The notes under the pieces are model-generated. The model did no database searches, was not told the origin of the DNA, and saw nothing but the letters and a program-made list of their open reading frames with translations. A stretch of DNA of 64,000 bases from Xanthobacteraceae bacterium 501b (lineage in GTDB: Bacteria; Pseudomonadota; Alphaproteobacteria; Rhizobiales; Xanthobacteraceae), in the NCBI GenBank assembly GCA_000378025.1, contig KB899087.1:2418001-2482000 (forward strand), given 5' to 3'. The position numbers were made by a program, and so were the translations under genes. Shown here piece by piece: positions 44,704 through 47,853 of this stretch (position 1 is the first letter of the stretch; each line of letters starts with the position of its first letter).

Positions 44704-45243
44704 TCAGTACTCGACCACGCCGTCCAGCGCGTAGTGCTTGATGGTCTTGCGGTTGGCGATCAGCTCGTCGACCGTCGGCTTGCCGGTCATGGCCCGCTCC
44801 AGCGCCAGCTTCATCGCCTCGTAATTGGTGCGGTAGAGATCGGCCTTGTCGAGATTGGCATCCTCGGCGCAGCGCGGGTCGAGCCACACCATCACGATCA
44901 TGCAAAGCTCGTCAGCCTGGTCCTTCGGCAGGATGCCCTCGCTGAGCGCGTCGACGATGGCGTCGCCAATGGCGCCCTGAACCACGCCGCCGAGCAGGTC
45001 GACATATTCCAGCGTGTGGATGGTGGCCTTGGTGGTCATCATCGTCGCGGGGCGCACCTGCTGGTTCAGGTCGCGCACCACGAACATGCGGGTGTGCCCC
45101 TGCACCTGCCCCATCATCGAGGCGAAGGCATGCCCGGCGGGGCCGCGCACCGAGCCGATCAGAACCTCCGGCATCGCGTCGGTGAACTGCCCGTCGGCAG
45201 CGAGAACGGTCGCTTCGCCGGTGCGGAACCAGATGTCGCTCAT
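44704..45243 (-). CDS. Formaldehyde-activating enzyme (Fae) paralogue
   Basis: This 179-residue Fae-domain protein aligns along its length with Fae, which condenses formaldehyde with H4MPT. The N-terminal MSDIWFRTGEATVLAADGQ and VLIGSVRGPAGHAF correspond to canonical GEALVGDGN and IIGPRGSP regions. The catalytic His17 of Fae appears replaced by Met (DAMPEVLIG), so the usual chemistry is doubtful. C-terminal YRTNYEAMKLALERAMTGKPTVDELI is family-like. It may be a formaldehyde sensor, carrier or altered-specificity enzyme. It is divergent from the PleC-like kinase. Confidence 0.85.
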   Translation of the reverse strand: MSDIWFRTGEATVLAADGQFTDAMPEVLIGSVRGPAGHAFASMMGQVQGHTRMFVVRDLNQQVRPATMMTTKATIHTLEYVDLLGGVVQGAIGDAIVDALSEGILPKDQADELCMIVMVWLDPRCAEDANLDKADLYRTNYEAMKLALERAMTGKPTVDELIANRKTIKHYALDGVVEY

Positions 45244-45401
45244 GTGAACCTCTTTATTTCTGCTGCCACCCGCAAACCGGGCAAAAGCGCATAGCACCGG
45301 GGCCCGCGTGGCGTCCATGCGGCGTGGTTGTCGGCAGGCGACACTCCGCTTGTCCGGCCGCGCCACCCACCCAGGCACCCGCGCCACCTCCCCAGGTTGC
45401 T

Positions 45402-45470
45402 GAATCGTTAACTTGACTCCCCGGGACTCTGGACAGTGGGGGGCCATATCGATTCAAATCGGAGTGATTC
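45402..45470. promoter_or_regulatory. Cluster of five GANTC (CcrM) sites before the PleC-like kinase
   Basis: GAATC at 45402, GACTC at 45415 and 45425, GATTC at 45451 and 45466 fall within 69 bases; random occurrence at this base composition would be about one per 300 bases. GANTC is methylated by the cell-cycle methyltransferase CcrM. A GTTAAC next to the first site could be half of a CtrA box. The segment lies 68 bases before the kinase ATG and also serves as upstream DNA for the Fae-like gene. Confidence 0.55.
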
Positions 45471-45537
45471 GGAGAGATGCGGCACATCGCTCCTATCGGA
45501 CTGGGAACGGGTTTTGGGACTTCGGGGGAGGCCGGCG

Positions 45538-47853
45538 ATGGCGCGCGCCAACGCTGCAGGCGCGTCCGTGCGCGTACAAGCCATGCGAGGGCTTGCACGC
45601 ACCGTGGCGCGACCTGCCTATCAGCGATTGGTCGACGCCGAACCCTTCATGCGCAAGGCCGTTCCGGCGCTGATCATTGCGTTCATCGCCTCGGTCGCCA
45701 TTGCCGCGATCGTGCAGATCCACGCCTATCGCGCCGACGCCATCGCCAATGCCAAGGATGAGCTGGCGCTGTTCGCCGCCGCCATCGCCAGCGAGGCCGG
45801 CCGCCTGCCGGCAGGATCGACGGCGCCGGACGCGCTGCTGCAGAACAGCCTGCCGCCCCGCGCCGCCGAGGACGGGCGCCGCTACGGCCTGATCGACCCC
45901 AACGGCAAGATCCTCGCCACCCATGACGAGACGGCGACCGCCGCCGAGCAGATCGGCCAGCTCCTCGCCAATACGCAGGCACTCACCATCTTCGCCGAGA
46001 ATGCCGGCGTGCTCGATGTCATCATGCCCGACGGCGCCGCGGCCCTCGCCACGGTGCGCAACCTGCCCAATGGCGCGCTGCAGCTGGTCGTGGTGCAGCC
46101 GCTCTCCGGCGCGCTGGCGACCTGGCGCTCCGACACCGTCCTCACCGTCACCCTGCTCTCCACGACAGGCGCGGTGCTGCTGATCCTCGGCTTCGCCTTC
46201 CACTGGCAGGCGACCCGCGCCCGCGAGGCCGACGGCATCTACGAGACGGTGCGCGCGCGCATCGACACGGCGCTCTCGCGCGGCCGCTGCGGCCTGTGGG
46301 ACTGGGACATGGGCCGGGGGCGCATGTTCTGGTCGGATTCGATGTTCGAGATGCTCGGCCACGCCCCGCGCGAGGACCTGATCTCCTTCGGCGAAGTGGC
46401 GAGCCTCGTCCATCCCGACGACACCAATCTCTACGACATCGCCCGCGAGATCGCCGACAAGCCCGGCCGCACCATTGATCGCGTCTTCCGCATGAAGCAC
46501 GCTGACGGCCACTGGGTGTGGCTGCGCGCCCGCGCCGAAGTCGTGCCCCAGCCCAATGGCGAGCCGCCGCATCTGGTCGGCATCGCGGTGGATGTCACCG
46601 AGGAGCGCCGCCTCGCCGAGCGCACCGCCACCGCCGACATGCGCCTGCGCGACGCCATCGAGAGCATTTCCGAATCCTTCGTGCTGTGGGACGCCTCGAA
46701 CCGGCTGGTGCTCTGCAACTCGCGGTTCCAGTCGCTCTACGGCATTGGCGACGCCCATGTCGGGCAAGGGACGGAGTTCGAGACCATCGCCTCGCTCGCC
46801 CGCCAGCCGGTGGTCCGCATCCCGCTCCGTCCGGAAGACCGGCCGGAAGAAGGCGCGCGCGCCTTCGAGGCGCAGCTGGAAGGCGGGCGCTGGCTGAAGG
46901 TCGCCGAGCGCCGCACCAAGGATGGCGGCTACGTCTCGGTCGGTACCGACATCACCGCCCTCAAGCGCCATGAAGAGCGCCTGATGGAGAGCGAGAAGCG
47001 GCTGATGGCGCTGGTCGCCGATCTGCGCAAATCGCAGCAGACGCTGGAACTGCAGGCGCTTCAGCTCGCCGAGCTGGCGCAGAACTATGCCGACGAGAAG
47101 ACCAAGGCCGAGGACGCCAACCGCGCCAAGTCCGAATTCCTCGCCAATATGAGCCATGAGCTGCGCACGCCGCTCAACGCCATCATCGGCTTCTCCGAGC
47201 TGATGGAGAGCGGCCTGTTCGGGCCGCTCGGCAATGACAAGTACAACGAGTACTGCCGCGACATCCGCGATTCCGGCCGCTATTTGCTCGACGTCATCAA
47301 CGACATTCTCGACATGTCGCGCATCGAAGCCGGCCGCGTTCAGCTCAACCTCCAGCCGGTCCGGCTCGACGAGGTGGTCGCCGACGCCATCCGCGTCATG
47401 TCGGTGCGGGCCGGCGAGAAGCAGCTCACCATCGTCGACGAATCCGATGCCGCGGTGGCGGTCGAGGCCGACAAGCGGGCGCTCAAGCAGATCACGCTCA
47501 ACCTGCTGTCCAACGCCATCAAGTTCACCCCCGAACAGGGCCGTATCAGCCTGCGCACGCGGCGTTCCAAGCACGCGGCGCTGCTCGTCATCGAGGACAG
47601 CGGCATCGGCATCGCCAAGAGCGCGCTGGCCAAGATCGGCCGCCCGTTCGAACAGGTGGAAAGCCAGTTCACCAAGACCCACAAGGGATCCGGTCTCGGC
47701 CTCGCCATCGCCAAGTCGCTGGTCGAGTTGCATGGCGGCTCGATGCGGATCCGCTCCTCCGAGGGGGTCGGCACCACGGTGGTGATCCGCCTGCCCTTGA
47801 ACGGCCGCCCGGCCCTGCAATACCGTACCAGCCGGACCCTTCCCGCCGAGTAG
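45538..47853 (+). CDS. PleC/PdhS-type PAS sensor histidine kinase
   Basis: This 771-residue membrane kinase has a first membrane segment at about residues 42-62 ([20 protein letters not shown]). A periplasmic loop follows, then a second segment near 200-225, and PAS domains at about 250-360 and 370-470. The HisKA domain carries H540 in [20 protein letters not shown]. The region [20 protein letters not shown]...[18 protein letters not shown] is the PleC/DivJ/PdhS signature for partnering with DivK/PleD-type regulators. The HATPase domain is intact. It begins 6 bases after GGGGGAGG, and a GANTC cluster lies upstream. Confidence 0.88.

Follow-up and report, generated by a model that had tools for sequence, protein, structure and literature searches.

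A short stretch upstream of a sensor kinase gene in Xanthobacteraceae bacterium 501b is crowded with GANTC sites. The locus raises the question of whether these sites belong to a promoter through which CcrM methylation could time the kinase gene, or whether their crowding has another origin. We analyzed the 64 kb window (the whole stretch of DNA, 64,000 nucleotides) together with a sample of the genome and the orthologous loci of relatives. The features discussed below are, in window coordinates:

44704..45243, minus strand: divergent homologue of formaldehyde-activating enzyme (Fae), absent as a neighbour at most relatives with the element
45397..45411, plus strand: candidate CtrA-type box, TTGC-N7-TTAA, with GANTC site 1 in the spacer; 6 of 8 positions match TTAA-N7-TTAA
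45402..45406, no strand: GANTC site 1 (GAATC), read from the sequence and kept in 15 of 25 congeneric species
45415..45419, no strand: GANTC site 2 (GACTC, in CTTGACTC), read from the sequence, 25 of 25 congeneric species
45425..45429, no strand: GANTC site 3 (GACTC), immediately adjacent to the −35-like hexamer, read from the sequence, 25 of 25 congeneric species
45430..45435, plus strand: −35-like hexamer TGGACA, located 14 or 15 bases before site 5 across orthologs; hexamer class shared by 94 of 108
45446..45450, no strand: place of GANTC site 4, here ATATC (lost); GANTC in 14 of 25 congeneric species
45451..45455, no strand: GANTC site 5 (GATTC), sharing bases with the −10-like element; 25 of 25 in the genus, first core site in 94 of 108 orthologs
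45454..45459, plus strand: degenerate −10-like element TCAAAT, 18 bases from TGGACA; AAAT follows the first core site in 52 of 94 orthologs
45466..45470, no strand: GANTC site 6 (TGATTCG), near the putative transcription start; 25 of 25 in the genus, YGAKTCK in 92 of 94 orthologs
45471..45493, plus strand: GGAG-GATG/CATC-CTCC, a possible hairpin of the leader, immediately downstream of site 6, from stem statistics in relatives
45524..45531, plus strand: ribosome-binding site GGGGGAGG, read from the sequence and conserved in the genus alignment
45538..47853, plus strand: pleC, 771-aa sensor kinase (Pfam PAS_3, PAS_7, HisKA with H540, HATPase_c)

A dense GANTC cluster upstream of a kinase gene

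The five GANTC sites of the window cluster start at 45402, 45415, 45425, 45451 and 45466, that is, within 69 bases and 136 to 68 bases upstream of the kinase start codon, exactly where an earlier note on this DNA had placed them between 45402 and 45470. The same note took the background to be about one GANTC per 300 bases, which is wrong: 80 evenly spaced 20 kb stretches, together 1.6 Mb of the 5.11 Mb genome, contain 1909 GANTC (1.19 per kb, about one per 840 bases), so that the cluster is rarer than had been claimed. The window itself holds 73 GANTC in 64 kb (one per 877 bases), and dinucleotide shuffles of it average 261. With the length of the observed cluster itself (69 bases) as the cut-off, the sample and the window together (1.66 Mb) yielded a single cluster of five sites, the one upstream of pleC, three clusters of four sites and 14 of three; a Poisson estimate predicts about 0.008 such five-site clusters per genome.

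When the interval is made slightly longer, a similar density occurs once more in the sample, with five GANTC in 72 bases and nine in about 207 bases at phage-tail-like genes (stretch L156), so that density alone cannot be equated with promoter control. This stretch (L156 11829-12035, G000:C1 about 2495829-2496035) lies about 14 kb past the window and carries a repeated GATTCacGAGTCnnnnGAATC unit among its nine sites; read by eye, the surrounding genes possibly represent a gene transfer agent or a prophage. At L124 2220-2278, four GANTC precede a gene that by eye is cobD/cbiB-like, three of them inside GAATCACTT-type repeats, and a RecQ-like gene (also named by eye) is located nearby on the opposite strand. 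Four further sites at L179 8494-8627 flank the start of a gene that by eye resembles S-adenosylmethionine synthase, the maker of the methyl donor.

Identity of the kinase

The start of the kinase gene is best placed at the ATG at 45538, downstream of GGGGGAGG. PleC is bound to the membrane and combines PAS domains with HisKA and HATPase. The window kinase has this architecture, with two N-terminal hydrophobic segments that, judged by eye, lie around residues 43-62 and 199-222. The NCBIfam DivJ model gives 223 bits over residues 519-754 only, against a cut-off of 1000, and is a weak test because only one of 14 control genomes passes this cut-off. The PdhS model matches the kinase core only, at 184 bits, far under its cut-off, whereas a separate kinase encoded in the genome, an open frame of 1036 aa, reaches 617 bits, still under the 2000-bit cut-off. 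PdhS/CbrA is a large soluble kinase without transmembrane segments (PMC3577659); given the size of 771 aa, the hydrophobic segments, and the better PdhS candidate elsewhere in the genome, we rejected a CbrA/PdhS1 identity for the window kinase. Thus, of the "PleC/PdhS-type" description in the earlier note, the PleC part holds, on architecture and neighbours, and the PdhS part does not.

In tblastn searches at 80 relatives' loci, the neighbours PepN, GlnE, the second sensor kinase and the response regulator were matched at 57, 56, 46 and 27 loci, respectively, and Fae and DegP at two and one, the examined flanks ending near these last two genes; at most Bradyrhizobium loci, none of the window's neighbour genes was matched. 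A frame that by eye is DegP-like lies downstream of the response regulator in the window. In Sinorhizobium meliloti, pleC is reported as SMc02369 (PMC4254191), and the two-component pair SMc02366-SMc02367 is described downstream of degP1 (PMC2651895). If pleC neighbours this pair, as the locus numbers suggest, and SMc02368 is glnE, the region would be consistent with the window order of DegP, response regulator, histidine kinase, GlnE and kinase. Judged by its domains, size and neighbourhood, the window kinase is best named pleC. Among the matches listed, in a search that may omit the nearest records, its closest named relatives are from a metagenome-assembled "Rhizobiales bacterium" (67% identity) and from Xanthobacter autotrophicus (65%).

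Conservation within the genus

We aligned the region upstream of pleC with its counterparts in 24 other species of the genus (25 in total). GANTC is present in all 25 species at 45415, 45425, 45451 and 45466, and in 15 at 45402, which is not well conserved. The mean majority fraction along the alignment is 0.59 at −175 to −145, rises to 0.89 at −137 to −100 and 0.93 at −93 to −60, is 0.88 at −60 to −44, then drops to 0.62 at −44 to −25, and climbs back to 0.90 at −25 to 0. The earlier note had named loss of the sites in close relatives as an outcome that would speak against methylation control; such loss is confined to site 1 among the five, and the arrangement is also found throughout the order and in a second one.

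A composite element across the order

The ortholog set comprised 30 and 80 loci, 110 in all, of which L097 and L099 were left out because they have less than 200 bases of upstream sequence. The remaining 108 were searched with a pattern consisting of a −35-like hexamer, a gap of 11-19 bases, GATTC or GAATC, a gap of 8-15 bases, and GATTCG or GAATCG. A composite element of the form T(G/C/A)GAC(A/G), 14 or 15 bases, GATTC or GAATC, 9-14 bases and, mostly, [CT]GATTCG was found in 94 of them, including 24 of the 25 congeners and 70 of the 83 loci outside the genus, and no locus contained a second candidate element; these loci are related, with several genera represented many times, and are not independent. 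Although 11-19 bases were allowed, the gap between the hexamer and the first core site is 14 bases in 48 and 15 bases in 46 of the 94 elements. The hexamer is TGGACA in 58 cases, TCGACA in 22, TAGACA in nine and TGGACG in five; a GANTC abuts or slightly overlaps it in 52 of the 94 orthologs, and the second core site fits YGAKTCK, a motif reported for GcrA, in 92.

Most of the 14 loci missed by the pattern keep part of the element at the same distances. Two loci come close: L025, with TGGACT as its hexamer, and L031, with GAGTC at the first core site. In L064, L068, L071, L073 and L078, all from Methylobacterium, TGGACA is followed by a GANTC 35-37 bases after its start, as in the window, and the first core GANTC at the −10 is missing. 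The opposite natural variant is seen in L043, L081, L102, L103 and L105 (three of them Bartonella), with TGGACA and a GANTC 20-21 bases after its start, and without the last, GcrA-type site. L061 contains a GANTC pair 15 bases apart without the hexamer, and L104, where the match begins only at residue 113, gives no information.

Within the 1.66 Mb of the genome examined, the full composite element occurs only as the window copy, so that no regulon can be defined from it. The same sequence contains nine pairs of GANTC in which the second site is of the GcrA type, the window pair included. Of four other places inspected, one coincides with the beginning of a gene resembling S-adenosylmethionine synthase.

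The element in another order

A class-wide search covered 115 genomes and returned 30 loci, and the upstream regions of 15 of these were inspected. Only L211 resembled the element, and imperfectly. We then examined 30 loci from the order of L211, with orthology assigned by sequence score (about 670-720 bits, compared with about 330 or less for the next kinase); contig ends truncate two of these loci (L240 and L269). A first, stricter expression matched three of the 30 loci. A relaxed form, TGGACA or TAGACA, 16 bases, GAATC, 9, 10 or 16 bases, and [CT]GATTCG, matched 25 of the 30, with no match elsewhere in those loci; this form was loosened after viewing some sequences of the same set, and 23 of its 25 matches come from one genus (23 of 26 loci in g134, both loci in g135 and neither of the two in g133), which limits the independence of this result. 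In the home order, the relaxed expression matched 88 of the 108 loci, with one match elsewhere.

A predicted core promoter under proposed CcrM and GcrA control

The conserved hexamer and the core sites can be read as a sigma-70 core promoter, with GANTC abutting the −35-like hexamer, lying over the −10-like element, and following just after it. The spacing between the −35-like and −10-like elements is 18 bases in the window and one base less in about half of the orthologs. A plain sigma-70 scan called no promoter in the upstream region, and a plain sigma-70 consensus promoter was accordingly rejected; the poor −10 agrees with a promoter dependent on an activator. TGATTCG lies at 45465-45471, and of the five GANTC sites only the one within it (site 6) fits YGAKTCK on either strand. 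Both candidate regulators are encoded in the genome: an open reading frame at L112 1357-2532 matches CcrM (PDB 6pbd, 9.3e-151), and one at L111 1483-1986, minus strand, matches GcrA (PDB 7ye1, 5.9e-42). In published work, GcrA acts together with sigma-70 at promoters that are methylated and contain YGAKTCG or YGAKTCK (PMC7987155, PMC8725594), and pleC of Caulobacter crescentus is listed among 80 loci at which efficient GcrA binding requires CcrM (PMC3667746). Loss of CcrM has been reported to affect promoters with conserved GANTC more often (PMC3973325), and a survey from 2010, which counted GANTC in front of cell-cycle genes, draws no conclusion on methylation control from these counts (PMC2877005).

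Most likely, with a probability of roughly three in four as judged from these sequence comparisons, the cluster constitutes the pleC core promoter, timed by CcrM methylation of several GANTC sites that are read by GcrA and sigma-70 RNA polymerase. In this promoter, TGGACA would serve as the −35 and TCAAAT as the −10, and transcription would start near site 6. The GANTC sites would be methylated by CcrM, and GcrA, together with sigma-70 RNA polymerase, would act at site 6, a YGAKTCG site, with the weak −10 making the promoter dependent on GcrA. Passage of the replication fork would leave the extra sites half-methylated and thus alter the response of the promoter, and the methylation state, as read by GcrA, would set the cell-cycle timing of pleC transcription; we infer the response of the sites to methylation. 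An input from CtrA just upstream is possible, and weak in this genus. The GANTC-free stretches from −60 to −44 and from −25 to 0 are also well conserved (0.88 and 0.90), which counts against this reading. GC skew gave a signal too weak to place the locus on a replichore.

Alternative explanations

The same conservation could come from an ordinary promoter combined with a direct repeat (GATTCAAATC and GATTCGG, about 15 bases apart) bound by a transcription factor that reads the bare sequence, methylation being incidental. The flanks of the core repeats are indeed conserved beyond GANTC itself, as GATTCAAATC and GATTCGG, and the start-to-start distance is 14-16 bases in 86 of the 94 orthologs. 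However, in the second order, the core sites are 21 bases apart in 22 of the 25 matches, and around the core, several letter variants of GANTC pile up, at 13 to 28 times their frequency in the same loci. Beyond the two core sites, extra GANTC reach 37 per kb in the genus and 19 per kb in the other loci, compared with 1.3-1.5 per kb elsewhere in the same loci, which, over the 90 bases upstream of the first core site, amounts to an enrichment of 27.6-fold and 12.8-fold, respectively. Among fifteen other palindromes of this form, fourteen are enriched less than 3-fold in both groups; the exception is AANTT, enriched 18-fold (genus) and 7-fold (other loci) in the same stretch, as an AT-rich promoter or its boxes would produce, so that AT-richness of the promoter accounts for part of the GANTC signal. 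The comparison with the other palindromes nevertheless argues that GANTC as such has been selected, and not only the repeat of one protein, and we regard the bare repeat as an unlikely explanation of the locus.

CtrA could be the main regulator, acting through a TTAA-type box just upstream of the −35, with GANTC in a secondary role. The earlier note had suggested that a GTTAAC, located at 45407-45412, might be part of a CtrA box. For the order, this suggestion gains ground: boxes with 7-8 of 8 matches to TTAA-N7-TTAA are found upstream of the −35 in 42 of the 94 orthologs, mostly 18-37 bases before it, compared with 11 of 470 mononucleotide shuffles, and 41 of these are among the 70 orthologs outside the genus. 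For the window, it does not, as the box matches at 6 of 8 positions only, and within the genus a box with 7 of 8 matches occurs in just one of 24 orthologs (L024). Judged from the sequences, a CtrA box is thus plausible at the level of the order, and in this genus it is weak. CtrA has been reported to bind the pleC promoter in S. meliloti (PMC4433202) and, as cited in PMC2877005, in Brucella abortus, but CtrA depletion in S. meliloti is reported to cause no significant change in pleC expression (PMC4433202). Given that CtrA would also leave the density of GANTC unexplained, its role as main regulator appears distinctly improbable.

Conservation of the downstream half of the region might be driven by a leader RNA stem-loop or another RNA element after site 6. 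Stems of at least 6 that start inside or just after the last GANTC are present in 51 of 83 distinct sequences, with 27 expected, and stems of at least 8 in 18 of the 83, with 4.6 expected; in relatives, the arms of the hairpin have diverged and are still complementary. The mean folding z-score is −0.73 for 94 sequences compared with −0.10 for 188 control stretches, but z falls below −2 in 8.5% of the sequences, little more than the 6.4% of the controls. Rfam returned no family match at E values up to 1, and a known RNA family after site 6 was rejected on this ground. The stem-loop that starts at the last GANTC may represent a hairpin in the 5' leader or an operator at the DNA level; as an account of the conservation, an RNA element would leave the sites upstream of 45466 unexplained, and we consider it very improbable.

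A role of the sites in expression of the divergent fae-like gene, or a chance origin of the cluster, is hardly credible: fae is head-to-head with pleC in all 25 congeneric species, but it was matched at only two of the 80 relatives' loci, at one of these downstream of the kinase, and relatives without fae at that place keep the element, so that a fae promoter was rejected, as was chance, given the shuffles and the expectation of about 0.008 clusters per genome. In Xanthobacter (L032), a Fae homologue is also found upstream of the kinase.

Implications and comparison with known systems

In the open-access literature covered by our search, we found no account of a conserved GANTC element at pleC. 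Likewise, pleC is absent from the main texts of PMC11514494, PMC3973325, PMC7987155, PMC6813329 and PMC8116508, and a supplementary table may list it.

A broader proposal, which we put forward as tentative and would not bet on at even odds, is that pleC is an ancestral, conserved CcrM/GcrA target across Alphaproteobacteria. Its promoter would then be a multi-site methylation sensor, in which four to six fixed GANTC sites turn fork passage into a switch-like change of pleC expression, so that replication would set the kinase/phosphatase balance of DivK. If this is true, a regulon that has otherwise been described as rewired between species would have a stable core in the pleC promoter. In Hyphomicrobiales, control of pleC through this element would put DNA methylation immediately above the PleC-DivK-CtrA pathway. 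Two orders share this type of site geometry, which, together with the CcrM-dependent binding of GcrA in Caulobacter, makes pleC a concrete candidate for such a conserved regulon core.

Among known systems, the GcrA/CcrM promoters of Caulobacter (mipZ, podJ, pleC and ctrA P1) resemble the window in having GANTC in the core promoter, a YGAKTCK-type site, and both ccrM and gcrA in the genome, and pleC itself is reported there as a CcrM-dependent GcrA target (PMC3667746). Unlike in Caulobacter, four to six GANTC surround the pleC promoter in the genus of the window; in Caulobacter, more than one GANTC within 50 bases upstream is reported for 11 of 96 GANTC-bearing cell-cycle start sites (PMC4287350). 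The gcrA promoter of Agrobacterium tumefaciens is similar in that six GANTC in 250 bases precede the gene of a cell-cycle regulator, but methylation is reported to repress it, also in Escherichia coli (PMC11514494), the sites are less dense, and the gene is not pleC. Upstream of ctrA in Sphingomonadales and Caulobacterales, up to five or six GANTC are reported within 300 bases (PMC8116508), again at another gene, and the relevant passages of that report describe no fixed geometry of −35, GANTC and GANTC. Overall, this kind of promoter is already known, and the pleC element is an unusually dense and deeply conserved new example of it.
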